A stretch of 64,000 nt of DNA, from contig NZ_JARFTP010000022.1 of NCBI RefSeq assembly GCF_029167375.1, positions 1-64,000 on the forward strand, written 5' to 3'. Below the pieces are notes generated by a model. That model made no database searches, was not told the DNA's origin, and worked only from the letters and a program-made list of their open reading frames with translations. This stretch comes from Tsukamurella sp. 8F. Lineage in GTDB: Bacteria; Actinomycetota; Actinomycetes; Mycobacteriales; Mycobacteriaceae. A program made the position numbers and the translations under genes. This document shows, piece after piece, positions 26,630-52,766 of this stretch. How positions within the stretch are numbered: the stretch's first letter is position 1; each line of letters opens with the position of its first letter.

Positions 26630-26655
26630 GGCGGCGATCGAGCATGGGAGCAGCA

Positions 26656-28070: not shown

Positions 28071-28088
28071 GTCCACTCCTCTCGACCC

Positions 28089-28162
28089 TTGACAGGTTCT
28101 CCATCGTAGCCATAGCGTCATCACTGCTGACGTCATCAACGTTGACGGTCATCGTCGATGAC
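28089..28162 (+). promoter_or_regulatory. exporter promoter with inverted repeats (TetR operators)
   Basis: TTGACA (28089-28094) and TAGCGT (28113-28118) are 18 bases apart and read toward the exporter. Downstream lie the inverted repeat CGTCA-N7-TGACG (28116-28132), which overlaps the -10, and the perfect GTCATC-GTC-GATGAC (28148-28162). Several TGACG/CGTCA half sites recur in this 133-bp gap, which suits binding of two repressor dimers. Confidence 0.5.
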
Positions 28163-31884: not shown

Positions 31885-34022
31885 CGGAGCCCCCTCTGCC
31901 ACTGCCTCGATCCGCCATCGTCGCGCGCGCCCCGGAGGTCCCACAACTCGGCGAACGCCCGCAGCGCCGGCTGGAGGAGTCCACGCCCGACCTGGCCCCC
32001 GAACCACGCGAACCACACCGCCTTCGCCTGCCGGCGCTCTCGTGCGGACAGCGCGGGGTCGATGCGCAGGCCGTCTACACCGTCGCGCAGGTAGTCGCGC
32101 GGGGCGAAGGAGACGGTGCCGCTGTACGCCTCGGCGGCCGACGTGAGTTCCACTGTGGCAGTGCGAGTCTGACTCGCGATATCGCGCCCGAGGCGCGCCG
32201 TCTTGTGCGCGACGACCGTCCAGTCCGTACCCGTTCCGTCGGTACCCGCGAGACGGTACTCCATGAGCGGATGCCGCAGCTCCGCTGCGTCGACCGGGAC
32301 GCCGCCATCCGGCCGGATCACGAGATCGCCCGAAACGGTGAGCGCGCCACCCGGTAGGAGATCGCATTCCACGGTCCCCCGAACGTCGAGGCGGCGTTCG
32401 GTGAGCAACTGATGCATGCCTGCCGCCGAGAGGGTCAGTGCGATCGTGCACGGGCGTGAATCGACGGCACCCGTCAGGGTCTCGTCGAAAGCCACGTGGG
32501 GCGTGCTGTCCCGACCGGGCAGGCGCGCGAGCCCCGTTCGGTCCATCGCCGTCAGGGTCCTGAGCTGCGCAGAGACGTCGAACCCCGGCGCCGGCTCGAT
32601 CCCGTGGCGAACGGCGAGTTCCCGCGCCCTCGCCGTACCCGCCGCGGGGACGGAGAGGGACGCCTGCGCGAGTGCGCACGCGGACGGCGAGCGCAGCATC
32701 GTCGCCAGGAAGGCCAGTTCGGCGACACCGTCGATGCGCTCGAGGATCCCCGACCTCCACTCGTCCCACGGCTGGACCGTGGGCGCCATGCCCGCGAGAG
32801 TGAGCCCGCGCACGAGATCGTCGAGGGTCACCGGTTCGCCGACGAGATGGTAGTTCCCGCCCCATGAGCCGGGATCCAGGACGGCTGCTGCAGTCAGACG
32901 CGCCACCCAGTCCACCGGAGCCGTGTTGAGACAGCGGAATGCGGGGATCGTGCGGTACCGCGTGAGCGCCGCAGTGATCGCACTGCTGAGGTCGTGCGCG
33001 TTGTGAGCGCCGGTCGACCGGTTTCCCCCGATACCGCCGGGCCGCAACAAGGTCACGACGAGACCGTGGTCGCGGGCGCGCTGGAGCGCCACATCGGAAG
33101 CCCACTTGCTCCGGTCGTAGCCCGAGCCGAGCCGATCGACACGGGCCAGCGGGCCGTCCTCGTCCATCGCCTCGATGCCGATCTGGTTGAACGCGCCCAG
33201 AGACGAGACATGGTGCAATGGAACGGGTCCGACGGATGCGAGCTCCGCGAGAGAGAGTGGGCCCGCGACGTTCGCACCCCCGAGTGACCGGTACCCGCGG
33301 ACGAAGTCCACCTCCGCGCCGACGCTCACGACGCCGTCGACCTCCGCGGCCAGCGCCTGCCAGCGCACATCGTCGAGCCCGAGTCGCGGCGCCGCGAGGT
33401 CGCCCGCCACCGCGGTCACCCTGCGGCGGACCTCGGTGTTCCACGGCACTCCGTACTCTTTTGCGGCCGTAGCGATCCGGGCCAGCGCCGCGGCGTCGTC
33501 TGCCGCCCGGGCGAGGCACACCACGTGGGCGTCGCTGCGCCGCAGCAGCTCGGCGAGGACGTGCACACCGACGAAGCCCGTGGCCCCGGTGAGCAGCAGA
33601 CATCGCGGCTCGTCCGTGCGTGGTGGGCCGACGAAGGGCAGCTCGTCGGCCCGCCGGAGATCGGCGCGGACGAGGGCGAGCTCATCACCCGCGCTCTCAC
33701 CGGGCGAGCCCACGGCACGGGCGATCGCCGAAGGTCGCGGATCTGCGAACACCGCCCCGAGATCCAGCTCGGAACCGAGCTCGTGTTCGAGCTCGGCCAC
33801 CAGCTCCACGGCCTGTGCGGACGTGAGACCGGCGTCGAACAGGTCTGTGTCGGAGCCGACCGGCCTAGCCGCCATCCGCCCGGCGGCGCGGATGAGAGCA
33901 GCCTCGATCCCCGCCGGATCCATCCCCACCACCCGCGGAGACCCACTCGGGTCAGCCGGTTCCGGCCGCGTGCCGTCGGCGAGGGCCAGCAGTTCGTCCA
34001 CGGTCATCTCGGGTTCCGTCAT
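31881..34022 (-). CDS. carrier protein-thioester reductase with extra C-terminal domain
   Basis: Protein of 713 aa in three parts. Residues 35-105 are a carrier domain (phosphopantetheine Ser68 in FDAGLTSAQAV). Residues 140-500 are a thioester-reductase/short-chain dehydrogenase domain (NAD(P) loop TGATGFVG at 145-152; Tyr302 and Lys306 in GYDRSKWAS) that releases carrier-bound acids as aldehydes or alcohols. Residues 509-700 form a beta-rich domain (AFDETLTGAV, ECDLLPGG, MEYRLAGTDGTG, HKTAR) resembling the segment found downstream of GMC oxidoreductases in actinobacterial cholesterol-oxidase-like fusions; this last resemblance is from memory and unverified. It is coupled by ATGA overlaps to the PKS (upstream) and the hydrolase (downstream). 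It supplies the fourth carrier of the pathway and probably its reductive off-loading step. Confidence 0.85.
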   Translation of the reverse strand: MTEPEMTVDELLALADGTRPEPADPSGSPRVVGMDPAGIEAALIRAAGRMAARPVGSDTDLFDAGLTSAQAVELVAELEHELGSELDLGAVFADPRPSAIARAVGSPGESAGDELALVRADLRRADELPFVGPPRTDEPRCLLLTGATGFVGVHVLAELLRRSDAHVVCLARAADDAAALARIATAAKEYGVPWNTEVRRRVTAVAGDLAAPRLGLDDVRWQALAAEVDGVVSVGAEVDFVRGYRSLGGANVAGPLSLAELASVGPVPLHHVSSLGAFNQIGIEAMDEDGPLARVDRLGSGYDRSKWASDVALQRARDHGLVVTLLRPGGIGGNRSTGAHNAHDLSSAITAALTRYRTIPAFRCLNTAPVDWVARLTAAAVLDPGSWGGNYHLVGEPVTLDDLVRGLTLAGMAPTVQPWDEWRSGILERIDGVAELAFLATMLRSPSACALAQASLSVPAAGTARARELAVRHGIEPAPGFDVSAQLRTLTAMDRTGLARLPGRDSTPHVAFDETLTGAVDSRPCTIALTLSAAGMHQLLTERRLDVRGTVECDLLPGGALTVSGDLVIRPDGGVPVDAAELRHPLMEYRLAGTDGTGTDWTVVAHKTARLGRDIASQTRTATVELTSAAEAYSGTVSFAPRDYLRDGVDGLRIDPALSARERRQAKAVWFAWFGGQVGRGLLQPALRAFAELWDLRGARDDGGSRQWQRGLR

Positions 34023-37000
34023 TCGGTCCTCCAGGATCGGAAGGTGCGCAGGCGTTCCGGGCTGGTAACGGAATCATCGGGCGGCTCGGCACCCGTGAGC
34101 GCCGCAACGAACCTGCGCGCCGGCTCGTTTCGGTCCGTGGGTTCCAGCGCGAACCGCACCGCCGTACAACGCATCTCGTCGGCTCGGTCCGCGACCCAGG
34201 CGAGCACCTGCTCCTCGGCACCGCGACCGAGGGTACGGCAACTCATGTGCCAGGCTCGGACCACCAGTACGTCCCCGTCCCGACGCAGAGCGAGCAGGCC
34301 TGCCCGGCCGTGGTCGCCGAAACGGTCACGTGCAGTCACCACATACACTTCGCCGTCGGCGACCCATCGCGCGACGTCCGCCGGCCGAGCTCGGCCGAGC
34401 ACGAACTGGGTTGTGCGCGCGACGATCTGCTCGGCGCGATCGCGATCGCTCGCTGTCAGCGGCGCGATGTCCACCTCGAGCCCCAGGCCGGACAGGAACT
34501 CCTCGAACCCCTGCGTCGCCTGCGCCAGTGCGCGACGTTCGTCGGCCCGCCGGTAGCCCGCGCGGCGCCTGTCCTCGTCGGTGGCGGCCGCCGGTCGCAG
34601 GGGCCACAACCCCGCGACGAAGGCCTCGATCCCCTCCTGCGGGAGCCGGACGGCACGCACCTCGGGCAGGGCCTCGGCGACCCGTGCGATCTGCACCGGA
34701 TCGTCGTCCAGGAACACGACCGCATCCATGGCCGCACCGAGGCTGGCGGCGGCCGCGGCAAGACGCTCCGCCTTCGGTCCCCAACCGGCGTCCACGACAG
34801 CGAAATCACCCGGCCCCAGCGGGCTCTCGGTGCGGCTCAGCACGGCCTCCACCGTGTCGGAGTCGTTGTTGCTCACCAACACGAGATGGGTTCCCGCGTC
34901 GCGCCATTGCCGGAGCCGCTCGGCGAGCGCGACGCGGCCGGGTCCGAATCCCACACCGTCCGGCCCTATCTCGCCGGCGACACCGTCCCACAGGGTCCCA
35001 TCACCGTCCACCGCGATCACCTTCGGGCGCGGCGCCAGGGCGGAGCGCAGTGCGCGGGCGATTGCGAGCGCCAGCGTCGCCTGGAAGCGCCGCGTGTACG
35101 GCAGGCCCGCGAGCCGCTCGGTCGCGCCGTCGTGCACATCGTCATCGGTCAGGCGGTCCAGCACTCCGACGCCTGGGAGCGCCCGCACCGCATCGGCCAG
35201 CCGAGCATCGCATCCGGCGGGCGATCCCGGAGGACTCGGCGGAACGACGACGAGCACAGCCGATGTGCGTGCGAGATCGGCAACGCCCGTGGCGAACCCG
35301 TCGGTGTCCGGAGCATCGCTACCTCGGACGAGCAGCACCACCGCCTCCGGGCGTTCGTCACGTAGGCGAGGATTCAGGAGCGTCGCATCCAGGTCCGTGT
35401 GCGGTACCTGGTCCACGCGATGTGCCGGCCCACCCGCTGCCCACGCGATGCGGCACAGCCCGGGTAGGTCGCCGAGGCTGAACGCACCCGCGACCACCGC
35501 GCGCATGACGGGCGTCACGGTTGCGCGAAGAGCGTCGAGGTATCCGGCGGCGAAATCATGCGCGCCGCGGTCGTCGAACACATCCGTCGAGTACGTCAGG
35601 AACACCCTCGCGGAGTCCACGGCCGGGTCGGCGACGACGGTATACATCACATCCAGGTCGACCGCGCCCGAGGGCACCGGTCGCGCCTGCGCCGCGGACG
35701 ACCCCGGCACCGTGAGGTGGCTGAAGTACGCCTGCAGCAGCGGCTGCCCCGCGCGATGCAGACGCTTCGCCAGGACAGGCAGGTCTCCCACCACCCCGCG
35801 ACCGTCGAACAGGTCGCGGAGGGACCGCGCCGCGCGGCGCACGGCGTCGTCGGCCGGTTCGGCGCAGTCGTGGCGTACCGCGACGGGCACGGGAACGGAA
35901 TGGAACCCGACCGCACCCTCCGCACCCCTGTGCAGGCGCGTGTCGACCGGTACCGCCACCGCGAACCTCGTTGTACCACTGACGCGTCCGAGATGAGCGA
36001 TCGCGGCGGCGAAGTACACCGCCGCGGGTGTGACGCCCAGCTCGCGAGCGCGGGCGTCTACCACCGCCGGTGCCGGGATGTCGACGATGACGAGGCCTTC
36101 GCCGTATCGGCGCTCCCCGGCGACCGGGAGAGCGAGGCGCTCCACATCGTCGAACCCGCCACGCGCGGCAACGGGAATCGCGGGCGCGCGGAGCGCCGCG
36201 AGATCCCGCGACGCTGCCTCGCCGGCGTCGCCCAGCTCGGTACCCGTGAGCACCGCATGGATCTCGCCGCCCACCGTGATCAGGGACGGAACGTCCGATA
36301 CGGCGTGGTGCGCGCCGAGCACCACGGCACAGGCCCCGTCCGCACCGGACACCAGGCGCAGCCGCCACAGCGGCCCGCGGTCGATGTCGAAGGGTTCGGC
36401 GAGCAGATCGCGCGCCGCCGCTTCGAGACTCGCGACATCGACGTCCGGCATGCGGGTCGCGTCGGCCGCCGGTGGCTCTCCGCTCAGCGCCACGCGCACG
36501 GTGCCGTCGGCGCCCGTCGGCAGCCCGGCACGCAGGATCGGGTGCCGCCCGGCGACCGTGGCAAGGGCCACGCGCACACCGTCCAGCGTCGTGCCGGCCG
36601 GCGCAGCGACCGCGAGTGCGAGCGCGTGGGTCGCCGGCGGCAGACCACGCCCCGCCCGCAGCAGACGCACGACGTCGCCGCTCGCCGGGATCTCCCCGCC
36701 TCCCGTCGACCGCTCCTGTTCCACGGCGGCGCTCGCGCCGATCAGCCGCGCCAGTCCGGCGACGGTCGGTTCGGCGAACACCTCCGACACCGGGAGGTCC
36801 ACGCCCGTCTCGGCACGCAGCGTGTTCCGCAACTCCACGGTCATCAGCGAGTCGAAGCCGTACTCCGGTAACAACGTGTCGTCGTCCACCGCAGACGGTG
36901 CGCTACCCGCGACCCGTGCCACATGGTCGCGCACGAGCTCCACGAGTTCGTCCTCGGTCCGCGGGCCGCCGGACGTCGTCACGGGCACACCGTCGGCCGC

Positions 37001-40000
37001 CACCGAGTCGGCGCGGAGCCAGGCCAGCATCGGATGCGGTGGCAGCGCATCGGGATTCCACCGTGCGGCGGCGACCGCCGGGTCACCGTCGGCCGCTCGC
37101 CCCACGGCGGCATCGAAGAGCGTCATGGCGACGTCCGCGTCGAGTGGCACGAGGCCCGCCGCCCGCATGCGCGCGGCCGCGTTTCCCGGCGCGCGTTCCG
37201 CCATTCCTGTACCCCAGGCTCCCCACTGCACCGACACCGTCGGGCGACCCGCCGCTGCCCGCTCGCGCGCGAACGCATCGAGTGCGGAGTTCGCCGCGGC
37301 GTAGACGCCCTGCCCCGGCGCTCCGGTGACCCCCGCGAGGGACGAGAAGACGGCGAACAGCGTAGGCGGGTCCGCTGCGGTCACACGGTCGAGCACCGCA
37401 GCACCGTCGATCTTGGGCCGCAACACATCCGATACCTGTTGCCCTCCCACATCGGGGAGTAGCGCATCGTCTACGACGCCCGCAGCATGCACGACGGCCA
37501 CGATGTGCTCTCCCGCGAGCGCCGCGCGGACAGCGGCCTCGTCGGTCACATCGCACGCGCGCGCCGCCGCGTCGGCCCCGAGCTCCGCCAGCTCGGTCAG
37601 CGTCTCGGCGGTGCCCGGAGCGGCCTCGCCACGACGACCGAGCAGCAGGACGCGGCGCGAGCCGTACTCGCGTACCAGGTGGCGGGCCACCACCGCCGCG
37701 ATCGGACTTCCGGCACCCGTCACCACGGTGGTTCCATCCGCCAACACCGGTAGCGCACCGGCTGATCCGGGAGCGACTGCGAGGCGCGGTGTGCGCACAG
37801 TACCGTCGAAGACCGCGGCCTCCGCCAAGTCGGGTGCCGCCCCGGCGTCCGGCTCGGCGTCCGTGTGCAGCAGCCGGATCCGGCCCGGATACTCCCACGC
37901 GGCCGCACGTACCAGGCCGGTGATCGCGGCTCCCGCCGCATCCAGACGGGGCGAGCCGTCCGTCGACGGCGCCGCGGGAACGCACACGAGCACGTCACCG
38001 GGCCCGGAACATGCCCGCGCGAGCCGGGGTGCGAACGCCGTGACCGCCGCAACGGCGTCGCCGCCACGCGGCACGTCGAGGACTGTTGCCGCGTGAGCGA
38101 CTGTGGTGGTGTGGGTCTCGTGCCAGCGTAGGCTGAGCAACGCGGCTTCGACCGCCCCCGACCGCGAGGTGCGGCCGGGCAGTGGCCGCATCGTCAGCGC
38201 GTCGATGTCGAGCACCGGATTGCCGTCGAGGTCGTCGGCGGCGACGGCGAGTGTGTCCGGCCCGATACGGGTGAGCCGCACCCGCAGAGCGGTTGCTCCC
38301 GGCCGGTACAGTCGGATCCCGTTCCATGCGAAGGGCATTCCCATGCGGCCGGGCTCGGCCATCGCGAGCGCGTGTGCGGCCGCGTCCAGCAGGACCGGGT
38401 GCAGCAGGTGAGCACGTGCCCTCGCCACCTCCTCCGGCGGCAGCGCCACCTCCACAGACAGCGTGTCGCCGTTCCGCCACGCGCGCTTCAGTGCACGGTA
38501 GGCGGGCCCGTATTCGAATCCGCCCGCCGCGAGGTTCCCATAGACGCCGGCGCAGTCGATCTCGTCGCCCGCAGGCGGCCAGTCGAGCGCCGCTTCGCGG
38601 CGCGGGCGGGCAGCCTCCGTACGGCCCTCGGCCACCTTCACCCACTCCGTTCCGCAGGCATGCACGGCGACTACCCCGGGCCCGATCTGGACCTGCACCG
38701 GGGTCGTCCCCTCGCCGATCTCGAACGGTGCCGTGAGAACCAACTCCCCGATCTCGAGCCCGGATTTCCGGGCCGCGACCGCAGCGCACTCCATCGTCAC
38801 CGCGCCGGGCAGGATCACACGTCCGCCGATCCGGTGGTCGCCGAGCCACGACCCGGCCGGCGCAGGCAGCGCGCCCAGCACCAGGGTTCGCGATTCCGGT
38901 TGCGGTACGTATTGATTCAGGATCGGATGGCGTAGCGCGTCGACGCCGGGCGGTGTCACGAATACAGCGGGACCTACGCGGGCGTGCAGCCAGTACCGCC
39001 GGCGGTCGAACGCGTAGGTCGGAAGGTCCACGCGATGTCCGCCGGGGTGCAGTGCCGCCCAGTCGATTCGCGTGCCGCGCAGCCAGAGTCCAGCGGCGGC
39101 GTGACGGATACCGTCGAGCCCGGGGCGGGCACGTCCCGCCGTCGCGGTGACGAACTCTGCCGCCAGCTCGTCCAGTGCACCCGCGAGCACGGGGCGCCCG
39201 CCGATCTCCACGAAGTCTGTGTAGCCGTCTGTTATCGCGGCCCGCACGGCATCGTCGAACCGCACCGGGTCGACTGCATTGCGCGCCCAATGGTCTCGGG
39301 GTGCAGGACCGAGCAGGCCGCCCGTCACGGTCGAGTACACGGGAAGGCCGCCGGGCGCGACAGGAACGTCGAGCTTCGCCTCGAACTCGCTGCGATACAG
39401 GGCGATCCGTGGCGAGTGCGCAGGGAATCCGATGTCCACACGCCGGGCACGCAAGCCCTCGTCCGCGCACCACTCCTCGAGTTCCTCGAGCGCGTCCGCG
39501 TCGCCGGTCACAGTGGTCGAGGACGGTGAGTTGACCGCACCGACCGCCAGGCGCCCGGGCCAGCGCTCATCGAGGGTGCGCGCGAGCCGGTCCGCGGCCA
39601 TGCCGACAGACGTCATCCCGCCCGTACCGGCGAAGGGGGCCAAAGCCTCCGCACGCTTCGCGACGAGCGAAGCGGCATCGTCCAGCGTGAGGCGGCCTGC
39701 GGCGTACGCGGCGGCGATCTCGCCCTGGGAGTGACCGATCACCGCGGCCGGCACCACACCGGCCGCCTCCCAGAGCGCGACCTGCCCGGCGGCCACCGCC
39801 AGGATCGCCCCCTGCACGACATCGGGCCGACCGACCGGCGGACCGGCCGGGTCTCCGCGCAACGCGGCGGCGACGGAGCACCCCAGGTGCGGTTCCAGCG
39901 CTGCAGAACACTCGTCGACCGCGTCGGCGAACACGTCGGACTCGGACAGGAGCCGCTCTGCCATCCCAGCCCATTGCGTTCCGTGACCGCCGAACACGAA

Positions 40001-43000
40001 CACCGGGCCCGCGCCCCCGTCGCGTGCTCGTCCCGTCCGCAGGGCGGGATGTGTCGTCCCCACGGCGAGGGCGGCGAGTCCGGCACGGAGCGCGGCACTG
40101 TCGCCCTCCAGGACTGCGCGGTGTCCCAGGGTCGCCCTGCCCCGCGCGAGGGACCATCCGATGTCGGCGTCGGCTTCAGGTGGGAGCCGTTCCGCGAGCC
40201 GGGCGGCCTGGGCACGCAGGGAATCCCAGGTCGCTGCCGACAGGATCCACGCTCCAGCGCCGCCCGGCGATGCCGCGCGCCCGGCGGTCTCGGCGATCTC
40301 GGCGGCTTCGAGGATGACGTGAGCGTTGGTGCCGCTGATGCCGAAGGACGACACCCCGGCGCGGCGCGGGCGGCCACCGGACCGCCAGGGCAGCGCGCGA
40401 TCCAAGACCTCGACAGCACCCGACGACCAGTCGACGTGCCGGGAGGGCGAGCCCGCGTGCAGCGTCCGTGGCATCAGTCCGTGTTCCATCGCGGCCACGG
40501 TCTTGAGGATCCCGCCTACGCCTGACGCCGCCTGTGTGTGACCGATATTCGACTTGAGCGTGCCGATCCGGAGAGGCGCGGCGCGCCCGCCGCCGTACGC
40601 CTGGATCAGGGCGGTGGCCTCGATCGGATCCCCCAACGTCGTACCCGTGCCGTGGGCCTCGACGACGTCGACGTCGTCGGCCGCCAACCCGGCGTCCGCG
40701 AGCGCGGCCGCAACGACCCGCTGTTGGGCGGCGCCGCTCGGCGCGGTCATCCCGTTGCTCGCGCCGTCCTGATTGACCGCCGAACCCGCGATCACCGCGC
40801 GCACCGGGTGGCCGAGACGACGCGCGTCCGACAGCCGTTCCAGCACCAACACTCCCGCGCCCTCGCCGAAGCTCGTGCCGTCGGCGTCGTCGGCGAACGG
40901 CTTGCAGTGCCCGTCGGGCGCAAGACCTCGCTGCCGCGCGAAACTCACGATGGCACCCGGCGTCGCCATGACGGTGACACCGCCCGCGAGCGCGAGCGAG
41001 CATTCGCCGCGTCGGAGCGCACCCACGGCCGAGTGGACCGCGACGAGCGACGACGAACAGGCGGTGTCGACGCTCAGAGCCGGGCCGGTGAGTCCCAGGG
41101 TGTACGCCACGCGTCCCGACACCACGGAGAACGTGCTGCTCTCCGCGAGGAACGGCTCCGCCTCCGGCGGCACGTCGTGAGCCACGCGCGTCGCGTAGTC
41201 GGCGTAGGTCACGCCCGTGAACACGCCCGCGTCGGTGCCGCGCAGTGAATCCGGTGCGATGCCCGCCGTCTCGAGCGCCTCCCAGGAGATCTCCAGCATG
41301 AGGCGCTGCTGCGGATCCATCGCGGTGGCTTCGCGCGGGCTGATGCGGAACACGGTCGGATCGAAGTCACCGGGCGCGTCGAGGAACCCGCCGCGACGCG
41401 TGTAGGTCGTGCCGGGCACCGCGGGATCCTCGGAGTAGAGCGCCTCGAGGTCCCAACCGCGGTCGGTGGGGAACGGCCCGATGACGTCGCGCTCCCCCGC
41501 TACCACGTCCCACAGGTCGTCGAGCGAGGTCACCCCGCCGGGGTATCGACACCCGACACCGACGATCGCGATCGGATCATGTTCCGCAACAGGGGTTTCA
41601 ACCTCCATCGAATCGATCCCGGCGACGTCCCCGAGCTGCTCCGCGACGTACTGCGCCAGAGCTGCGGGTGTGGGGGTGTCGAACGCGATCGTTGCGGGCA
41701 ACGTGACGCCGAGCTCTCGCTGCAGCCGATTCCGGAGCTCCACCCCGCCGAGCGAGTCGAAGCCGAGATCCCGGAACGAGGCATCCGGATCGATCGCCGA
41801 GGCGCCTGCATGTCCCAGGGTCTCGGCGGCCACTCGCCGCACCGTCTCGTGGACCACCCTGACGCGCGCCTGTGCGCTCAGACCCGCGAGCCTCGCCTCC
41901 ACCCCCGACGATGCCTCAGCGGCCCTCCGCCGGGCAACGGCGAACCCCGAGAAGGCGGGTAGGTGTTCGGCGAGCAGGGAGGTGTCGAGGCGTGCAGCCA
42001 GGACGTAGGGCGCCCCGATCGCGCGCGCGGCATCCAGCAGCCGCACCGCTACGTCGGTGCGCATGGGACGGACGGGCATGCGCGCCAAGCGGTCCCGGCT
42101 CGCGGCATCCAGTCCCGAGCCCATACCGCTCGCCCCGGCCCAGAGCCCCCACCCGACGGCGAGACCCGGGAGCCCCAGATGCCGACGGTGCTGGGCCAGG
42201 GCCTCGAGCGCGGCATTCGCGGCGGCATACGCGCCCTGGCCGGGCGAGCCGAGTAGGTTCGCGGCGGACGAGAACAGCACGAACTCCGCGATATCGTGAT
42301 CCGCGGTCAGCCTGTGCAGGTTCCACCCCCCGGTGACCTTGGGGGCACACACGGCACGCACCTGTTCCTCGTCGATCTCGGGCGCGGTGGCGTCATCCAG
42401 AACACCCGCGGCGTGGTAGACGGCCGTGAGCGGCCTCTCGAGTCCGTCGAGCACCGCGGCGAGCGCATCGGGGTCGCCCACGTCGCAGGCTACGACATCG
42501 ACACGCGCCCGGCCCGCAAGCTCCGTCGCCAGGTCGCGAGAGGCTTTCGTCTCGCCGGTTCGGCTCAGCAGCAGGAGGTTCCGCGCCCCCCGCTCGGCGA
42601 GGTGCCGGGTGACGGCCAGCCCGACCAGGCCCGTGCCGCCGCTGATGAGCACCGTGCCGTTCGGATCCGGCGCGCGCGGGACCACGAGGACGTTCTTCCC
42701 GATGTGCCGTGCCCGCGCCATGGCCCGGTACGCGTCCGGCGCGCGTCGGAGGTCCCACGCCGCGACCGGAGGGGCGGTGATGGCGCCCTGCTCGAGGAGC
42801 TCCGCGACCTCGTGCAGGATCGGCGCCACACGGCCGATCGGCATACTCGGCAACTCGATCGCCTGATACGCCACGCCCGGGTGGTCGGCGGATACGACGC
42901 GGGGATCGCGGACGTCAGTCTTACCCAACTCCACGTAGCGACCACGTCGCGCATCCAGGCGTCGCAGCGATGACTCGACCGACGCTCCCGCGAGTGAACC

Positions 43001-46000
43001 CACGACCACGTCTGCGTCCGGCGCATCGGGCGCGGGCACCCGGGAGTCCTCGATCGAGCCGTTCTCGAAACCTCGGCGGCGCAGCACATCCCACTTCTGT
43101 CGGGACGCAGTGACATAGACGTCTGCGCCCCAGTGTCGCCCCAGCTCCGACGCGGCCCATCCGACGCCGCCGGTGGCCGCATGGACCACCACCGTCTCGC
43201 CCGGGGCGAGGCCGGCGACGTCGCGCAGCGCGAGGTAGGCGGTCAGGAACGCGACCGGAACAGCCGCGGCCTGGGCATCCGACCAGCCCGCCGGGATCCG
43301 GCACAGGGCACGGTGATCCACGGCGACGGTTCCCGCAGTCGCCGGCAACAAACCGAAGACCCTGTCGCCCAACGCGATCGAATCGACGTCCGCCGCCGCC
43401 TCGATCACGACACCCGCACCCTCGCCGCCGAGCGCTGCGGGGTCGTCGGGCACCATGCCCATCGCGGTCACCACGTCGTGGAAGTTCACGCCCGCCGCCG
43501 ATAGGCGGACGCGGACCTCGCCGGACCGCAACGACCGCGGATCGTCGGGAGCCAGTCGCAGGGTGGCATCGGAGAGCCCGCCGCCAGGACGGGCCTCCAG
43601 CCTCCAATCCGACGCGGGCGTGCCGATCCCGGCAGCCGCGCGCGTCACCCTCGGGACATAGAGAACACCGAGTCGCGATACCAGTTCGGTGGCACCCAGA
43701 GCCATCGCGGAACTCGCAGCGGCATCGGCACTCTCATCGTCGGCATCGCCGTCGATGTCGACCAGGTGCACCCGGCCCGGGTACTCCGCCTGTACCGAAC
43801 GCATCAGCCCCAGCACCGCGGCGGCCGCCGGGTCGACGACGTCGTCTCCGCCCGACACCGCCACGGCTCCCCGGGTGACCACGGCGATCACGCCGCTCTC
43901 ATGCTCCAGCCAACCGGATACGTCGGCGGCGGTGCGCGCCACCAGCTCAGCGGTCTCGTCCGGCCCCGCTCCGCCGATTCTCAGCACGCGGTCGGGTAGA
44001 CGTCCGGCATCCGGCGTCGAAGCCACGGCCCACTGGAGCTCGTACAGATCGTCCGTCCGAGCCGTCGACAGTGCGCTCAGGTCCACAGCGGCGAGCGTCA
44101 CACGCGCGATCGACGCCACGAGGGCGCCTGTCCGCGTGCGGATCTCGACCGAGATCGCACCATCCGAAAGTCTGCGCAGCCGGACCTGCACGTCGGCCGC
44201 CCCGGTGAGGTGGACGGCGGCACCCGCGAATGCCACGGGCACCAACACGGTGCCCTCAGGCCGAGGCAGGCCGAGCAGGGCCGCGGGATGCAGAGCCGCG
44301 TCCAACAGCGCGGGATGCACCAGATAGCCGGCATCATCGTCGTCGACCTCGGGCGAGAGCACGACGTCTGCGATCGCATCCGCACCGTCGCGCCAGGCCG
44401 ACCGCACGCCCCGGAACGCGGGGCCGTAGACATAGCCCGCCGCAGCGAGTCGCCGGTACAGCTCGTCCCCGTCGAGGGCGTCTACCGGACGGTCTACCAC
44501 CTCACCCGGCACGGGATCGGCGGGCGCACCGAGTGTCCCCTCGGCGTGGCGCACCCAGTCGCCGTCGCCGTGGCTGTGCACGGTGACGCGGTCGCCTGTC
44601 ACCGTCGCCTGAACGTCGATCCCGGCGGCGCTGAGCGGCAGTGGTGTCTCGAGTGCCAACTCCGTGATCCCGCGACCGTCGGCCGCGCAGAGGGCTGCAT
44701 CGAGCAGCAACGCACCCGGCGCCAGCACGGTAGCCCCGATGCTGTGGTCCACGAGCCAGGGCCTGCGCCCGGTGGACACCCTGCCGGTGAAGGCCACCGC
44801 GGAGGCCTCCGGAAGCGCGGTCGCGGTCGGCAGCAGGGGATGCCCGGTCGGCCGCGCGCCCATGTCCTCCGGTGTGCCGCTGCGGGTCTCCACCATGAGG
44901 CGGCGCTCGTCGAACGGGTACGTGGGCAGGTCTGCCCAGTCCGACCCGGGCGCGAGGACGTCCCAGCGCAGATCGGCGCCGGAGACGTACAGCTGCCCGA
45001 GCGCGCGGTCGAGCGCCCCGGGCCCGTCGCTCTCGCGCGTGAGCGACCCGACGGCCGCCACCCGGCGCCCCGCATCCTGCGCGACGGTCTCGACCGCGGT
45101 CCTCAGGGTGGGGTGTGCGCTCAGCTCGACGAATCGGGTGTACCCCTCTGCGACCAGCGCGCCGACGGCCTCGTCGAACCGCACGCGGCGGCGCATGTTC
45201 GCGAACCAGTGCTCGGCGTCGGGCGCGTCGGTCTTGCGTCCGCCGGTCACCGTCGAGTACCAGGCCGCGGTCGGCGCCGATCCCGCTACCCCCGAGAACT
45301 GCTCGATCAGCCTCTCCCGCAACGGTTCCACAGCCGGGCTGTGGCCCGCAGTCCCGGCCGCGAGGCGGCGATGGAAGACCCCGTCGGCGTCGAGGCGTTC
45401 CTCGAGCTGTTCGACACCGGACACGTCACCCGTGACCACCACTGCTCGGCCCGAGTTGGCGACGGCGACCGAGACACCCTCGGGAAGCATTGCTTCCACG
45501 CGTTCGGCCCCGAGCCCGACGACGGTCATGGCCCCCAACCCCACCAGTGAACTCCAGCCTCGACTGCGGTGCACCACGATGCGCGCAGCCGCAGCCAGAT
45601 CCAGGGCTCCGCAGAGGTATGCCGCCGCGACCTCGCCCTGGCTGTGCCCGACCACCGCGTCCGGAACGACGCCGCGTTCCCGCCACAGCGCAGCCAGCGA
45701 GACCATCACCGAGAACAGCAGCGGTTGCAGCACATCCTCCCGGGTGACGTCCGCCGACGTGCGCAGCCGCTCGACGACGGACCAGCCCGTGAGCGGTGCC
45801 AGTGCGGCATCGCAGCGTTCCAACTCCGCACGGAAGGCATTCGATCCGAGCAGATCACGTCCCATTCCGGCCCACTGCCCGCCCTGACCCGCGCACACGA
45901 ACGCGAGCCGGCCGGCCGGTACCGGCTCGCCCGTGACGAGGTGGGGCGAGGCGACCCCCGATGCCAGCGCAGACAACCCGCCGCCCACGTCGGACCCGAT

Positions 46001-49000
46001 CACCGCGGCCCGGAAGCGGTGGTGCGCACGACGGGGACCCAGCGTCCGAAGCATCTGCGCCACCGGCGCTTCGGCCCCGATCAGGTCGCGCGCCCGCCGC
46101 CGTAGCGAGTCCTCGGTGGCGGCAGAGAGTGGCAGTACGTCCGCCACCGGATCGGGCCCGGCGGGCACGGCGGTGTGCGGTGCCTGTTCGAGCTCGGCGG
46201 CCGGTGCCTGTTCGAGCACCACATGGGCGTTGGTGCCGGACACCCCGAACGCGCTCACACCGGCACGCCGGACGCCGTCCGGCCAGGGCGCCCGGCTCAA
46301 GGCGAGCGGAGCCTCGGCCCAGTCGATCTCGCGCGTCGGATGCTCGGAGTCCGGCGTCCCCGGGCGCACGCCGGACCGCAGGGCCTGTACGGCCTCGATG
46401 AGCCCCGCGACCCCTGCCGCCGCCCCGGTGTGCCCGATGGTCGCCTTGAGAGCGCCCAGTACTAGCGGCCGCTCGCGGCCCGCGTGAACGCGGGCCAGGG
46501 CGCGCGCCTCTATCGGGTCGCCCAGTGGCGTCGCGGTCCCATGGGTCTCGACGTAGCCGATGTCGCCCGGCCGCACGCCCGCGGCCCGCAGCGCGGCTCC
46601 GATCACCGCCTCCTGCGCCCGTCCGTTCGGGGCGCTGAGCCCCTGACTCCGGCCGTCCTGGTTGACGGCCGAGCCACGCAGCACGGCCAGCACTCGATCG
46701 CCGTCGGCCTGGGCGGCCGCAAGGGGTTTCACCACCACGACCGCGCACCCCTCGCCCCAGACGGTGCCGTCTGCCGCCGCACCGAACGGGTGGCACCCGC
46801 CGGACGGGGACAGCGCCCCGAGCTTGGAGAACTCGATGTGAGTACGCGCATCCAGCAGCAGGCTCACGCCGCCCACGATCGCGGCCGAGCACTCCCCCGA
46901 CCGCAGCGCCGACATCGCGAGATGCGTGGCGACGAGCGAGCTCGAGCAGGCGGTGTCGACCGTGAGCGCCGGTCCCGTCACGCCCAGGAGATACGAGAGC
47001 CGTCCGGCTGCAACGCTTCCCGCCGAGCCCGTGCCGACGTGCCCGTCGAGCTGGTCGGGCGCGAGGTCCGCTCCGTAGCCGTCGCCGTACATTCCCAGGT
47101 ACACGCCGACGTCGCTACCGGCAAGGCTCGACGGGTCGATCCCCGACCGCTCCAGCGCCTCGTACGCTGTCTGGAGGAACACGCGGTGCTGCGGGTCCAT
47201 GGCCGCGGCCTCACGCGGGCCGATGCCGAACAGCGCTGCGTCGAATCCGTAGACATCGCCCAAGAACCCGCCCGCGACGGTGTAGGCCCGGCCCGGCGCA
47301 GCGCGATCCGGGTCGTACGGGTCGTCGACACGCCACCTCCCGGGCGGGACATCGCGGATCGCAGTTCCCCCGCTCTCCACCAGGTCCCACAGTTGTTCCG
47401 GGGTGTCCGCCCCGGGCAACCGGCAGGCCATACCGATCACCGCGATCGGCTCCGCCGCATCTCGTTCCCCAGGCGTCGCCCGATGAGGCACCGCACCCGG
47501 AGCGGACTCCACGTCGGACGCCCCGCCCAACGCCCCCGCAAGAGCGGCCACCGTCGGATACTCGAACACCAGGCTCGCGGGCACCACGCGCTCCAGTCCG
47601 GTACCGACCCTTACCGCCAACTCCACGAGTTGCCGTGAGCCCAGACCGAACTCGGCGAAAGGGCGATCGTCCACGATCGAGTCCGGATCGACACCCAGCG
47701 CCGACGCCAGCGAGCGCCGCACCACTGCGGCGACGTCCAGCGGACCGGGCTGGGGCACAGCAGGTTCCAGGATCGGAAGGGATTCGGGAGCCGGTGGGGG
47801 TTCCGGGACCGATAGTCTGCCCGCCAGGTAGTCGTCTCGACACGCGCGGCGCTGCAGCTTCCCGCTGCTCGTCTTCGGGATGGTGCGCGGCGGGATCAGA
47901 GCGACGTCCGCGAGCGCCACCCCGCAGTCGCGGGCTACGCGCGCAGTCACCGCGGCACGGACCTCGGCGGATATCGCTCCAGCGCGCACCTCGGCCACCG
48001 CGACGGCCTGCTCGCCCTCCCCGCTGTCCACCGCGAACACGATGACGCAGCCACCGCGCACTGCCGGATGCGCCGATTCGACCGCGAGTTCCAGGTCCTG
48101 CGGATGGTGGTTCACGCCGTCGATGATCACCAGATCCTTCCGGCGGCCCGTCACGTACAGCTCACCGTCGACGAACGCGCCCAGGTCCCCCGTCCGTAGG
48201 AACTCCTCACCGGAACCGGTGCGGAGCCGCGCCCCGAACGTATCGCCCGGCGGATGCCCCAGGTACCCGCGGCACACGCTCGGGCCGCGCACCCAGACCT
48301 CGCCCTCGGTTGATCCGGTTACCTCACAATGGGTTTCGGGATCCACGATGCGGACGTCGTAGCCGTGCAGCGGTCGGCCACACGACACGCGCGGGGCACC
48401 CGCGACTTCGGCTACGCGCGGCGGCTCGGTATTGCGGTTGCCCGTGATCGCGAGGGTCGACTCCGCGAGACCGTATAGGGGGCTCACGATCTCGGGACGG
48501 AACCCCGACGGCTCGAAGACTCGCGCGAACTTCTCCAGCGTCGCCGCGCGCAGGGGCTCCGAGCCGTTGAACGCCACCTGCCACCGGCTCAGATCGACGT
48601 CACCCGCCAGCCCGGCCGACCGGCGCGCAGTGATCTCGTACGCGAAGTTCGGGCCTCCCGAGACCCACGCGCCGAAGTGGTCGATAGCGCGCAGCCAGCG
48701 GGCGGGGTCCTCCAGGAAGTGCAGTGGCGACATGAGTACGCACTCCGCACCCGAGTACACGGTGCCGAGCAGCGGCGCAATGAGGCCCATGTCGTGGAAC
48801 ATCGGCAGCCAGCTGACGTGCAGCACGCCCGGCAGTGAGGCTATGAAGGCCTGATCGTGGCCGCCCTCGCGCGCCAGCGCCTCCTCCTGGGCCATCAGGT
48901 TCCCGTGTCCCACGAGCACGCCCTTGGGCGCGCTCGTCGAACCGGAGGTGTACTGGATGAAGGCGAGATCGTCCGGTCCGGCGGTCGGCGCCGCCCACTC

Positions 49001-49456
49001 GCCGGGATCCAACTCGTCGGTGCACACCCACGGCACGGCCGCGAGCTCGGGGACGGCCGATGTCGCGGCCGCGAGGGCGTCGGCGACGAAACGGGTGGTG
49101 AGGACGGCGCGGACACCCGCATCGGCGGCGATCGCCCGTAGGCGCCGCACGGCGCGGTCCAGCTCATGCGGCCCGGGGATCGGAGCCGGCACGGCGACGG
49201 CAGGCGCGCCGAGTGTGCCGAGGAATCCCGCGACGAAGTCCAGACCCGGCGGATACAGCAGTAGGACCCGGCTCCCCGCTAGGCCGGCGGCGCGCAGGCG
49301 TTCCGTCACCGCACCCGCGTGTGCACCCAGATCGGCGAAGGTGAGCTCGTCGGTCCCCCCTCCGATATCACCCGTCCGCAGGTACCGGAATGCGACGGTG
49401 TCCGGCCGCTCTTCGATCCATCGGTCCGCCGCGTGCAGAATCGATCTGGAATCCAT
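34019..49456 (-). CDS. hybrid megasynthase: FAAL-ACP-[KS-AT-DH-ER-KR-ACP]-[KS-AT-DH-KR-ACP]-C-FkbH
   Basis: Single polypeptide of 5145 aa. Order (rough residues): fatty-acyl-AMP ligase 1-570 (YTSGSTSAPKGV at 169-180); ACP1 (Ser607); KS1 669-1085 (Cys837); AT1 1189-1480 (Ser1272, specificity motif TAGH 1369-1372); DH1 1535-1800 (His1571); ER1 1955-2255; KR1 2265-2485 (Tyr2410, LDD motif); ACP2 (Ser2568); KS2 2625-3055 (Cys2800); AT2 3150-3440 (Ser3243, motif FPAH 3344-3347); DH2 3508-3770 (His3541); KR2 3908-4130 (Tyr4052); ACP3 (Ser4203); condensation domain 4272-4670 (HHAVSD 4383-4388); FkbH-like glyceryl transferase/HAD with N-terminal half 4686-5145 (DGDGTLW at 4817; SCRTLGRG near the end). 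The start ATG 49456 has GGGGAGGA upstream. A fatty acid is activated, extended twice (one fully reduced, one unsaturated unit) and then, I infer, esterified to a glyceryl unit. I know of no named product. Confidence 0.93.
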   Translation of the reverse strand: MDSRSILHAADRWIEERPDTVAFRYLRTGDIGGGTDELTFADLGAHAGAVTERLRAAGLAGSRVLLLYPPGLDFVAGFLGTLGAPAVAVPAPIPGPHELDRAVRRLRAIAADAGVRAVLTTRFVADALAAATSAVPELAAVPWVCTDELDPGEWAAPTAGPDDLAFIQYTSGSTSAPKGVLVGHGNLMAQEEALAREGGHDQAFIASLPGVLHVSWLPMFHDMGLIAPLLGTVYSGAECVLMSPLHFLEDPARWLRAIDHFGAWVSGGPNFAYEITARRSAGLAGDVDLSRWQVAFNGSEPLRAATLEKFARVFEPSGFRPEIVSPLYGLAESTLAITGNRNTEPPRVAEVAGAPRVSCGRPLHGYDVRIVDPETHCEVTGSTEGEVWVRGPSVCRGYLGHPPGDTFGARLRTGSGEEFLRTGDLGAFVDGELYVTGRRKDLVIIDGVNHHPQDLELAVESAHPAVRGGCVIVFAVDSGEGEQAVAVAEVRAGAISAEVRAAVTARVARDCGVALADVALIPPRTIPKTSSGKLQRRACRDDYLAGRLSVPEPPPAPESLPILEPAVPQPGPLDVAAVVRRSLASALGVDPDSIVDDRPFAEFGLGSRQLVELAVRVGTGLERVVPASLVFEYPTVAALAGALGGASDVESAPGAVPHRATPGERDAAEPIAVIGMACRLPGADTPEQLWDLVESGGTAIRDVPPGRWRVDDPYDPDRAAPGRAYTVAGGFLGDVYGFDAALFGIGPREAAAMDPQHRVFLQTAYEALERSGIDPSSLAGSDVGVYLGMYGDGYGADLAPDQLDGHVGTGSAGSVAAGRLSYLLGVTGPALTVDTACSSSLVATHLAMSALRSGECSAAIVGGVSLLLDARTHIEFSKLGALSPSGGCHPFGAAADGTVWGEGCAVVVVKPLAAAQADGDRVLAVLRGSAVNQDGRSQGLSAPNGRAQEAVIGAALRAAGVRPGDIGYVETHGTATPLGDPIEARALARVHAGRERPLVLGALKATIGHTGAAAGVAGLIEAVQALRSGVRPGTPDSEHPTREIDWAEAPLALSRAPWPDGVRRAGVSAFGVSGTNAHVVLEQAPAAELEQAPHTAVPAGPDPVADVLPLSAATEDSLRRRARDLIGAEAPVAQMLRTLGPRRAHHRFRAAVIGSDVGGGLSALASGVASPHLVTGEPVPAGRLAFVCAGQGGQWAGMGRDLLGSNAFRAELERCDAALAPLTGWSVVERLRTSADVTREDVLQPLLFSVMVSLAALWRERGVVPDAVVGHSQGEVAAAYLCGALDLAAAARIVVHRSRGWSSLVGLGAMTVVGLGAERVEAMLPEGVSVAVANSGRAVVVTGDVSGVEQLEERLDADGVFHRRLAAGTAGHSPAVEPLRERLIEQFSGVAGSAPTAAWYSTVTGGRKTDAPDAEHWFANMRRRVRFDEAVGALVAEGYTRFVELSAHPTLRTAVETVAQDAGRRVAAVGSLTRESDGPGALDRALGQLYVSGADLRWDVLAPGSDWADLPTYPFDERRLMVETRSGTPEDMGARPTGHPLLPTATALPEASAVAFTGRVSTGRRPWLVDHSIGATVLAPGALLLDAALCAADGRGITELALETPLPLSAAGIDVQATVTGDRVTVHSHGDGDWVRHAEGTLGAPADPVPGEVVDRPVDALDGDELYRRLAAAGYVYGPAFRGVRSAWRDGADAIADVVLSPEVDDDDAGYLVHPALLDAALHPAALLGLPRPEGTVLVPVAFAGAAVHLTGAADVQVRLRRLSDGAISVEIRTRTGALVASIARVTLAAVDLSALSTARTDDLYELQWAVASTPDAGRLPDRVLRIGGAGPDETAELVARTAADVSGWLEHESGVIAVVTRGAVAVSGGDDVVDPAAAAVLGLMRSVQAEYPGRVHLVDIDGDADDESADAAASSAMALGATELVSRLGVLYVPRVTRAAAGIGTPASDWRLEARPGGGLSDATLRLAPDDPRSLRSGEVRVRLSAAGVNFHDVVTAMGMVPDDPAALGGEGAGVVIEAAADVDSIALGDRVFGLLPATAGTVAVDHRALCRIPAGWSDAQAAAVPVAFLTAYLALRDVAGLAPGETVVVHAATGGVGWAASELGRHWGADVYVTASRQKWDVLRRRGFENGSIEDSRVPAPDAPDADVVVGSLAGASVESSLRRLDARRGRYVELGKTDVRDPRVVSADHPGVAYQAIELPSMPIGRVAPILHEVAELLEQGAITAPPVAAWDLRRAPDAYRAMARARHIGKNVLVVPRAPDPNGTVLISGGTGLVGLAVTRHLAERGARNLLLLSRTGETKASRDLATELAGRARVDVVACDVGDPDALAAVLDGLERPLTAVYHAAGVLDDATAPEIDEEQVRAVCAPKVTGGWNLHRLTADHDIAEFVLFSSAANLLGSPGQGAYAAANAALEALAQHRRHLGLPGLAVGWGLWAGASGMGSGLDAASRDRLARMPVRPMRTDVAVRLLDAARAIGAPYVLAARLDTSLLAEHLPAFSGFAVARRRAAEASSGVEARLAGLSAQARVRVVHETVRRVAAETLGHAGASAIDPDASFRDLGFDSLGGVELRNRLQRELGVTLPATIAFDTPTPAALAQYVAEQLGDVAGIDSMEVETPVAEHDPIAIVGVGCRYPGGVTSLDDLWDVVAGERDVIGPFPTDRGWDLEALYSEDPAVPGTTYTRRGGFLDAPGDFDPTVFRISPREATAMDPQQRLMLEISWEALETAGIAPDSLRGTDAGVFTGVTYADYATRVAHDVPPEAEPFLAESSTFSVVSGRVAYTLGLTGPALSVDTACSSSLVAVHSAVGALRRGECSLALAGGVTVMATPGAIVSFARQRGLAPDGHCKPFADDADGTSFGEGAGVLVLERLSDARRLGHPVRAVIAGSAVNQDGASNGMTAPSGAAQQRVVAAALADAGLAADDVDVVEAHGTGTTLGDPIEATALIQAYGGGRAAPLRIGTLKSNIGHTQAASGVGGILKTVAAMEHGLMPRTLHAGSPSRHVDWSSGAVEVLDRALPWRSGGRPRRAGVSSFGISGTNAHVILEAAEIAETAGRAASPGGAGAWILSAATWDSLRAQAARLAERLPPEADADIGWSLARGRATLGHRAVLEGDSAALRAGLAALAVGTTHPALRTGRARDGGAGPVFVFGGHGTQWAGMAERLLSESDVFADAVDECSAALEPHLGCSVAAALRGDPAGPPVGRPDVVQGAILAVAAGQVALWEAAGVVPAAVIGHSQGEIAAAYAAGRLTLDDAASLVAKRAEALAPFAGTGGMTSVGMAADRLARTLDERWPGRLAVGAVNSPSSTTVTGDADALEELEEWCADEGLRARRVDIGFPAHSPRIALYRSEFEAKLDVPVAPGGLPVYSTVTGGLLGPAPRDHWARNAVDPVRFDDAVRAAITDGYTDFVEIGGRPVLAGALDELAAEFVTATAGRARPGLDGIRHAAAGLWLRGTRIDWAALHPGGHRVDLPTYAFDRRRYWLHARVGPAVFVTPPGVDALRHPILNQYVPQPESRTLVLGALPAPAGSWLGDHRIGGRVILPGAVTMECAAVAARKSGLEIGELVLTAPFEIGEGTTPVQVQIGPGVVAVHACGTEWVKVAEGRTEAARPRREAALDWPPAGDEIDCAGVYGNLAAGGFEYGPAYRALKRAWRNGDTLSVEVALPPEEVARARAHLLHPVLLDAAAHALAMAEPGRMGMPFAWNGIRLYRPGATALRVRLTRIGPDTLAVAADDLDGNPVLDIDALTMRPLPGRTSRSGAVEAALLSLRWHETHTTTVAHAATVLDVPRGGDAVAAVTAFAPRLARACSGPGDVLVCVPAAPSTDGSPRLDAAGAAITGLVRAAAWEYPGRIRLLHTDAEPDAGAAPDLAEAAVFDGTVRTPRLAVAPGSAGALPVLADGTTVVTGAGSPIAAVVARHLVREYGSRRVLLLGRRGEAAPGTAETLTELAELGADAAARACDVTDEAAVRAALAGEHIVAVVHAAGVVDDALLPDVGGQQVSDVLRPKIDGAAVLDRVTAADPPTLFAVFSSLAGVTGAPGQGVYAAANSALDAFARERAAAGRPTVSVQWGAWGTGMAERAPGNAAARMRAAGLVPLDADVAMTLFDAAVGRAADGDPAVAAARWNPDALPPHPMLAWLRADSVAADGVPVTTSGGPRTEDELVELVRDHVARVAGSAPSAVDDDTLLPEYGFDSLMTVELRNTLRAETGVDLPVSEVFAEPTVAGLARLIGASAAVEQERSTGGGEIPASGDVVRLLRAGRGLPPATHALALAVAAPAGTTLDGVRVALATVAGRHPILRAGLPTGADGTVRVALSGEPPAADATRMPDVDVASLEAAARDLLAEPFDIDRGPLWRLRLVSGADGACAVVLGAHHAVSDVPSLITVGGEIHAVLTGTELGDAGEAASRDLAALRAPAIPVAARGGFDDVERLALPVAGERRYGEGLVIVDIPAPAVVDARARELGVTPAAVYFAAAIAHLGRVSGTTRFAVAVPVDTRLHRGAEGAVGFHSVPVPVAVRHDCAEPADDAVRRAARSLRDLFDGRGVVGDLPVLAKRLHRAGQPLLQAYFSHLTVPGSSAAQARPVPSGAVDLDVMYTVVADPAVDSARVFLTYSTDVFDDRGAHDFAAGYLDALRATVTPVMRAVVAGAFSLGDLPGLCRIAWAAGGPAHRVDQVPHTDLDATLLNPRLRDERPEAVVLLVRGSDAPDTDGFATGVADLARTSAVLVVVPPSPPGSPAGCDARLADAVRALPGVGVLDRLTDDDVHDGATERLAGLPYTRRFQATLALAIARALRSALAPRPKVIAVDGDGTLWDGVAGEIGPDGVGFGPGRVALAERLRQWRDAGTHLVLVSNNDSDTVEAVLSRTESPLGPGDFAVVDAGWGPKAERLAAAAASLGAAMDAVVFLDDDPVQIARVAEALPEVRAVRLPQEGIEAFVAGLWPLRPAAATDEDRRRAGYRRADERRALAQATQGFEEFLSGLGLEVDIAPLTASDRDRAEQIVARTTQFVLGRARPADVARWVADGEVYVVTARDRFGDHGRAGLLALRRDGDVLVVRAWHMSCRTLGRGAEEQVLAWVADRADEMRCTAVRFALEPTDRNEPARRFVAALTGAEPPDDSVTSPERLRTFRSWRTE

Positions 49457-49631
49457 CGGTCCTCCCCACCAGAGAAAAAACGCCTTTCCCACCACGGGGC
49501 ATCGCACCTGTTCCACTCTCCCCGGCGCGAATACCGCGGCCCCCGGCGTCGCCCGGTCGAACCCACGCTACTCCCGCAATGGTTATTCGGCACCCGGACC
49601 GATCGTGTTACTCCCCTGTAGCGTCTAACGC
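49457..49631. promoter_or_regulatory. divergent promoter region of the PKS operon and glycosyltransferase
   Basis: This 175-base gap separates the leftward PKS operon from the rightward glycosyltransferase. TAGCGT (49619-49624) ends 7 nt before the glycosyltransferase ATG, as in leaderless genes. For the PKS, a ribosome site GGGGAGGA precedes ATG 49456; no clear -35/-10 was found. A T-run (GTTTTTTC on the minus strand) lies in the PKS leader. Confidence 0.45.
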
Positions 49632-52684: not shown

Positions 52685-52766
52685 CTGGTGTCTCCTTCGT
52701 TCGTCGGTCTGGTCCCCACACCGGAGGCATAGGGCGCCATGGACGAGCACCGCACAGTCAGCGCGT

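Follow-up and report, generated by a model that had tools for sequence, protein, structure and literature searches.

A candidate acyl-glycerate assembly line with reductive termination in Tsukamurella sp. 8F and its conserved C-FkbH cassette

The window analyzed here, a stretch of 64,000 nucleotides from Tsukamurella sp. 8F (contig NZ_JARFTP010000022.1, positions 1 to 64,000), harbors a gene cluster that is probably a reductively terminated assembly line for acyl-glycerates. Its megasynthase starts with a fatty acyl-AMP ligase (FAAL), continues with two polyketide synthase (PKS) modules, and ends in a condensation (C) domain and an FkbH domain. Three genes downstream on the same strand encode a thioester reductase (TR), a hydrolase with a cysteine nucleophile (Cys-hydrolase), and a crotonyl-CoA carboxylase/reductase (CCR). 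The genes, their order, their conserved catalytic residues, and the conservation of the C-FkbH cassette among relatives were observed directly (Table 1).

The megasynthase is encoded on the minus strand by an uninterrupted open reading frame (ORF) of 5165 amino acids, which extends from a GTG at 49516 to position 34019. The ATG at 49456 (5145 amino acids) is the likelier start, because GGGGAGG lies immediately upstream and the FAAL match begins shortly downstream. Pfam and NCBIfam yield the domain order FAAL-ACP / KS-AT-DH-ER-KR-ACP / KS-AT-DH-KR-ACP / Condensation / FkbH (ACP, acyl carrier protein; KS, ketosynthase; AT, acyltransferase; DH, dehydratase; ER, enoyl reductase; KR, ketoreductase), which, together with the ORF, confirms an earlier sequence-only reading of this DNA that had described a single FAAL-PKS-PKS-C-FkbH protein of 5145 residues. 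According to its best NCBIfam and PDB matches, the N-terminal domain belongs with acyl-AMP ligases and not with CoA ligases: FAAL models outscore CoA-ligase models, and the nearest PDB chains are 7r7e (“Polyketide synthase”), followed by 3kxw and FAALs of the FadD23/FadD32 type. The C domain scores above the cut-off of its family (PF00668, 47.4 versus 30.6 bits) and carries the motif HHAVSD, and the FkbH domain, which exceeds the curated cut-off of TIGR01686 (270.1 versus 146.65 bits), keeps both the HAD motifs and the acyltransferase cysteine (DGDGTLW, SNND, DDD, RTTQF, and SCR). The C-terminal part is thus FkbH-like, as had been proposed, and the catalytic residues of both domains are present. 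A motif search also recovered the ACP serines, the KS cysteines, and the AT motif GHSQG. Deviations are found in DH1, where alanine replaces glycine in HxxxGxxxxP (a pattern search matched only DH2), and in KR2, whose NADPH motif is degenerate (TGAGSPIA versus TGxxGxxG) and whose K/S/Y/N residues are retained.

The start codon of each of the three downstream genes lies in an ATGA overlap with the preceding stop codon. The first of these genes encodes a protein of 713 amino acids that consists of an ACP, a thioester reductase above the cut-off of its family (TIGR01746, 213.35 bits), and a C-terminal region of about 210 residues, here called TRct. The YxxxK motif of the reductase reads SGYDRSK, and its nearest solved relative is the reductase domain of MxaA (4u7w, 168.6 bits) from the myxalamid synthase, which is not known to have an FkbH-loaded unit. 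The earlier view that the megasynthase constitutes the whole line has to be given up, because a further ACP and a reductive release domain are located on the next protein, and the Cys-hydrolase follows. For the TRct of the window, Pfam gave nothing at E ≤ 0.1, and the TRct family profile has no PDB match at E ≤ 1; Pfam matches to DUF5818 in five of 21 family members (best E 0.0067) and to Pestivirus_E2 in one (E 0.0063) are regarded as chance. The CCR exceeds the cut-off of TIGR01751 (535.5 versus 378.55 bits) and is therefore a member of this family; among the PDB chains compared, it scores highest with AntE (573.5 bits), followed by 9kva (446 bits) and 4gi2 (359 bits), with 6na3 and 6owe far lower (220 bits). 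That the operon also encodes an AntE-like CCR lends some support to the earlier description of the product as a branched lipid.

The C-FkbH end of the megasynthase belongs to a conserved cassette. A search of 397 genomes of the order gave matches to the C-FkbH query at E ≤ 1e-20 in 65 genomes (including that of strain 8F). Besides the window, at least four of these (G228, G329, G357, and G250) match the C domain as well as FkbH, a lower bound because scoring was limited to two candidates in each genome. In the Nocardia-like genus of G228, 45 of 150 genomes reach E ≤ 1e-60, in part with FkbH only; in a sample of the phylum, such a C-FkbH match occurs in 3 of 396 genomes, again including that of the window. 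The neighborhoods of 31 loci, hand-picked for spread, were retrieved, and in 30 of them C-FkbH, ACP-TR-TRct, and hydrolase follow each other on one strand and in the same order; the lone exception (G505) has an FkbH without this C domain. The short ACP of the TR protein gave a BLAST match in 28 of the 30 cassettes, and two genomes (G493 and G526) share the full domain order of the window. Within flanks of 1.5 kb, a reductase is present at 34 of 35 C-FkbH loci (the one without it, L067, starts 586 bases from a contig end), whereas neither a reductase (0/25) nor a C domain (0/25) accompanies FkbH at other loci. TRct was present in all five genomes with the cassette and in neither of two genomes without it. 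The C-FkbH end is not unique: it occurs at 35 other loci, and the logic of FAAL-ACP-C-FkbH has been published.

The catalytic residues of the cassette are almost invariant. The motifs HHxxxD and DLDxM of the C domain, the YxxxK motif of the reductase, and the cysteine of the hydrolase are each conserved in all 31 aligned sequences, and the serine of the ACP on the TR protein in all 29 that could be aligned (two loci gave no BLAST match in this region). In FkbH, SCR is present in 31 of 32 sequences (SSR in G505), as is the first HAD motif, DGD[DEGH]T (SGDDT in G505), which reads DLDNT in the solved relative 3slr. A single clade with 100/100 support unites the FkbH domains of the 30 cassette loci with those of the window and G505; within it the window branches first, at a fork supported by only 80/85. 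At the locus of G505 (L113, G505:C4), an open frame listed with 11103 amino acids carries the FkbH in which SSR replaces SCR, and weakly FAAL-like stretches occur close by; the frame perhaps encodes a nonribosomal peptide synthetase (NRPS) with a changed FkbH. A scan of contigs with a single protein returned five weak C-domain matches (26–29% identity) in Streptomyces and Actinacidiphila, which were not used further.

TRct and the hydrolase are also associated outside the cassette. One open frame of G250 (L131, G250:C28 near 159118-160095; 1428 amino acids) combines a TRct-like domain with a Cys-hydrolase (VVHCFG) of the same type as in the window. The preceding part, which is a thioester reductase in the window, is at this locus presumably, judging by its sequence, a GMC oxidoreductase. 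TRct and hydrolase therefore look like a re-used pair, which may handle aldehyde or alcohol lipids more generally.

The C-FkbH end is also present on five Rhodococcus plasmids (99% query coverage, approximately 36% identity), where it is followed in each case by a thioester reductase, an alpha/beta hydrolase, and ccrA. On the plasmid of Rhodococcus pyridinivorans Y6, an IS3 transposase gene (L163 22642-23903) separates TR from TRct; the other four are uninterrupted. Four of the plasmids continue with two glycosyltransferases and another alpha/beta hydrolase; the record of the fifth shows IS1380 and then ends at that position. This last hydrolase, assigned to the PF00756 esterases in the single case tested, is 27–29% identical to the PF00756 protein of the window in all four; PF00756 includes mycolyltransferases. 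The one Rhodococcus CCR compared is closest to an octenoyl-CoA carboxylase/reductase (4a0s, 622 bits), and identity to the AntE-like CCR of the window is 35–36%, so that two distinct CCR lineages occupy the same position. Both kinds of CCR serve long alkylmalonyl-CoA.

The families represented in the cluster suggest the following sequence of reactions, each of which, like the product itself, is predicted from the respective family. The FAAL would activate a fatty acid and load it onto ACP1, and the two PKS modules would extend the chain, probably incorporating in one step an alkylmalonyl-CoA that the CCR supplies and thereby introducing an alkyl branch. A branch is preferred because CCRs were found both in the window (AntE-like) and in Rhodococcus (octenoyl-type). 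The FkbH domain would dephosphorylate a phosphoglycerate and hand the glyceryl unit via its cysteine to the N-terminal ACP of the reductase protein encoded downstream; this putative loading of glycerate follows family logic and precedent. The C domain would then transfer the acyl chain from ACP3 to a hydroxyl group of the glyceryl unit, forming an ester, and the reductase would release an acyl-O-glyceraldehyde or, as with MxaA, an acylglycerol. The Cys-hydrolase may act on the product or in the release step, and a divergently oriented GT4 glycosyltransferase may attach a sugar to give a glycolipid. The length of the branch, the choice between aldehyde and alcohol, the step catalyzed by the hydrolase, and the sugar are guesses. 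Of the earlier interpretation as a lipid ester-linked to a glyceryl unit, the domain order and, by family logic and the precedents of vioprolide and corramycin, the ester with the FkbH-loaded glyceryl unit are supported; the product is still a prediction.

The individual steps have precedents in characterized systems. According to passages in PMC10099666 and PMC8949500, the vioprolide and corramycin lines have the order FAAL-ACP-C-FkbH-T (T, thiolation domain; FkbH drawn as HAD), and the C domain of vioprolide esterifies glycerate. As in these systems, the acyl chain of the window would be loaded by a FAAL, and a C domain with a catalytic histidine directly precedes an FkbH that takes the place of an adenylation domain. 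The lines differ in what follows: the vioprolide and corramycin chains continue from a T domain in cis into NRPS modules and grow as peptides, whereas in the window, PKS modules are inserted between FAAL and C domain, the next ACP is located on another protein, and a reductase ends the line. In malleicyprol biosynthesis, as described in parts of PMC12304814, BurF (ACP-C-NEX-T-Red; the name NEX for the N-terminal extension of FkbH is adopted from this source) uses a C domain to esterify a polyketide with a small acid on T, and a reductase with a YxxxK motif releases the product; model chains without a beta-keto group gave trappable aldehydes. The same succession of C, T, and reductase with YxxxK is present in the window, but spread over two proteins. 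In BurF, however, those portions of FkbH that act as phosphatase and acyltransferase are missing, and the small acid is trigonic acid, which BurJ/BurH load (PMC12304814), whereas the window has a complete FkbH, and Cys-hydrolase and CCR follow; the comparison with BurF is one of descriptions and not of sequences. Passages of the same source describe a four-electron release to the alcohol by the myxalamid reductase, and tetronate systems in which glyceryl-ACP and a FabH-like enzyme join glycerate to the polyketide at chain termination. In the window, by contrast, the place of the FabH-like enzyme is taken by C domain and reductase; no match to KAS III was found at E ≤ 0.001 among the scanned genes of the insert. 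The best reading is that the window would unite the logics of the vioprolide, BurF, and MxaA types with a complete FkbH, combining chain building, glycerate loading, ester formation, and reductive release. A report of the full combination was not found among open-licence PMC full texts, a scope that makes its absence weak evidence, nor did these contain a paper that links FkbH, Nocardia, and glycolipids.

Several observations weigh against an acyl-glycerate line of this kind. Some FkbH domains are described as loading lactate. With the cofactor motif of KR2 degenerate, the chain could be a beta-ketoacyl chain that cyclizes after reduction. A CCR was not found in the DNA retrieved around the 30 other cassettes (G506 carries one on that contig at a distance of about 64 kb), and in a search of ten genomes whose AT carries xAGH or xGGH, eight had no CCR above the cut-off. 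The GT4 of the window reaches only 55.9 of the 400 bits required by a glycerolipid enzyme model, around 11 of the 30 relatives no homolog or just a weak match was found, and the Rhodococcus glycosyltransferases tested are PMT_2 and EryCIII-like instead of GT4. The AT motif TAGH is linked to ethylmalonyl units, but the TAGH of AT1 was dropped as proof of CCR-derived or ethylmalonyl units because of the eight genomes without a CCR. Passages of PMC6164871 and PMC6090053 do not give this link, and those of PMC6090053 name VASH as an ethylmalonyl motif.

The condition of KR2 also bears on an alternative outcome. If the last KR were silent, a beta-ketoacyl chain would reach the C domain, and once the acyl-glyceryl thioester had been reduced to the aldehyde, an intramolecular ring closure of the Knoevenagel or aldol type would follow and yield a hydroxymethyl butenolide or butyrolactone, much as BurF joins its ester by a C domain and cyclizes upon reductive release (parts of PMC12304814). 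We regard such a ring former as unlikely, even with the degenerate NADPH motif. At the KR serine position, which we take to be 13 residues before the tyrosine, 12 of the 30 relatives have alanine, but 17 have kept the serine and one (G673b) has no KR, so that a beta-keto group cannot be the rule in this family. In the window, moreover, the motifs of DH2 and the K/S/Y/N residues of KR2 are retained, and dehydration would be blocked if the last unit carried an alkyl branch.

The separate clade formed by the FkbH domains of the cassette, with a first HAD motif different from that of 3slr, and the invariant cysteine nucleophile of the hydrolase, which suits acyl transfer, would also be compatible with the loading of another hydroxy acid or with transfer of the chain to a further acceptor; the end product would then be neither acylglycerate nor acyl-glyceraldehyde nor acylglycerol. 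This is improbable, since no gene for another acid was recognized among the genes of the insert, and the FkbH of vioprolide, which likewise follows a C domain, activates 3-phosphoglycerate (passages of PMC10099666). That the cluster is nonfunctional in strain 8F, as a decayed or silent insert, would fit its absence from the corresponding site in related genomes, the degenerate motif of KR2, and the changed residue in DH1, but is very improbable in view of 5165 codons without a stop, intact catalytic residues in C domain, FkbH, TR, and hydrolase, and ATGA overlaps at all three junctions.

The putative acyl-glycerate cluster is an insert. To the left of the block lie a pks13-type gene, a carboxyltransferase, glfT2, and glf, and to the right SpoIID/LGFP genes, a HAD hydrolase, and an Rv3818-like gene. 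Among 15 other genomes of the genus, glf directly adjoins the SpoIID gene in all eight sites examined, which places the block as an insertion between these two genes. Its G+C content is 71.4%, compared with 68.2% and 69.8% on the two flanks. None of the 15 genomes gave a match of more than 39 bits to the C-FkbH query; GT4 is matched at E ≤ 1e-30 in just two of them, and a CCR above the cut-off is present in 2 of 16 genomes of the genus (that of the window and G004). A role in mycolate formation was rejected because the block is absent from the site in all eight genomes, and the megasynthase gene is not part of the mycolate locus itself. Matches to the Pks13 mycolate condensase model (NF040607) amount to 669.5 and 680.1 bits in two halves (cut-off 2100), and a separate pks13-type PKS (KS-AT-thioesterase) is located at 4932-10097.

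Table 1. Predicted genes and domains of the insert in the window (positions refer to the 64,000-nucleotide stretch).
Feature	Position	Strand	Basis or remark
FAAL-PKS-C-FkbH megasynthase (likely start ATG 49456)	34019..49516	-	ORF, Pfam, NCBIfam
Acyl-AMP ligase domain	47807..49426	-	AMP-binding 200.7 bits (Pfam); FAAL models; PDB matches
ACP1 (GLGS, serine kept)	47528..47725	-	
KS1	46004..47452	-	
AT1 (motif TAGHS)	44972..45901	-	
DH1	44081..44842	-	
ER1	42686..43525	-	ADH_N + ADH_zinc_N_2
KR1	42137..42658	-	
ACP2	41645..41845	-	
KS2	40184..41578	-	
AT2 (motif FPAHS)	39158..40003	-	
DH2 (HRIGGRVILP and DAAAH kept)	38171..38929	-	
KR2 (degenerate NADPH motif, but intact catalytic residues)	37211..37735	-	
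ACP3 (proposed donor ACP)	36728..36898	-	
Condensation domain, proposed to form the ester (HHAVSD; DLDVM)	35417..36718	-	
N-terminal extension of FkbH	35030..35416	-	Assigned by position only, between C domain and TIGR01686
FkbH domain (HAD phosphatase portion; acyltransferase portion with the conserved Cys)	34091..35026	-	TIGR01686 270.1 bits; motifs
ACP - thioester reductase - TRct (TRct 31884-32522)	31881..34022	-	TIGR01746 223.4 bits, cut-off 213.35
Alpha/beta hydrolase, cysteine nucleophile (AHCIG)	30841..31884	-	Nearest PDB chains: gastric and lysosomal acid lipases
AntE-like CCR (ATG at 30844)	29633..30844	-	TIGR01751 535.5 bits
MFS (DHA2) exporter	28204..29646	+	
TetR regulator	27450..28139	-	
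TetR regulator	26644..27255	+	
GT4 glycosyltransferase, divergent from megasynthase	49632..50852	+	Weak best NCBIfam match: monoglucosyldiacylglycerol synthase

Other genes of the insert are less firmly tied to the cassette. Homologs of the GT4 (39–48% identity) lie near 19 of the 30 cassettes, with weak partial matches near two more; given this distribution and its presence in only two other genomes of the genus, it was rejected as a core gene. Its best NCBIfam matches, monoglucosyldiacylglycerol synthase and glucosaminyl-phosphatidylglycerol synthase (48.8 of 480 bits), are so far below the curated cut-offs that the names serve as hints only. The MFS exporter and the TetR regulators are not claimed as parts of the cassette, since each is matched, and weakly, near only 2 of 30 relatives. 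The window contains two adjacent SpoIID/LGFP genes (50849-52750 and 52893-54908), in contrast to the single one beside glf at the eight sites in other genomes, one of which shows its SpoIID gene as two overlapping open frames; one copy may have arrived with the insert. A plus-strand ORF (17193-19862, 889 amino acids) matches flavin amine oxidases only from approximately residue 436, so that its true start may be further in. Five ketosynthase matches are clustered elsewhere in the genome (G000:C69:99162-120241).

Vioprolide, malleicyprol, and myxalamid provide precedents for single steps of the proposed acyl-glycerate line. More tentatively, and with more doubt than confidence, the cassette can be regarded as an assembly-line route to glycerolipids, in which glycerate taken from a phosphoglycerate and loaded on a carrier, instead of glycerol-3-phosphate, would be acylated by an alkyl-branched polyketide via a C domain, reduced to a chiral acylglycerol, and glycosylated, providing envelope or signaling glycolipids across the Nocardia-like genus, the Rhodococcus plasmids, and other genera. 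If the proposed reactions are true, the cassette would define a conserved family of clusters, frequent in the Nocardia-like genus, that produce lipids of the acyl-glycerate, acyl-glyceraldehyde, or acylglycerol kind in a templated manner. TRct, which has no convincing match in Pfam or PDB, and a hydrolase with an invariant cysteine nucleophile would thereby gain a context, and the question of whether C domains paired with FkbH build glycerolipids would become directly testable.

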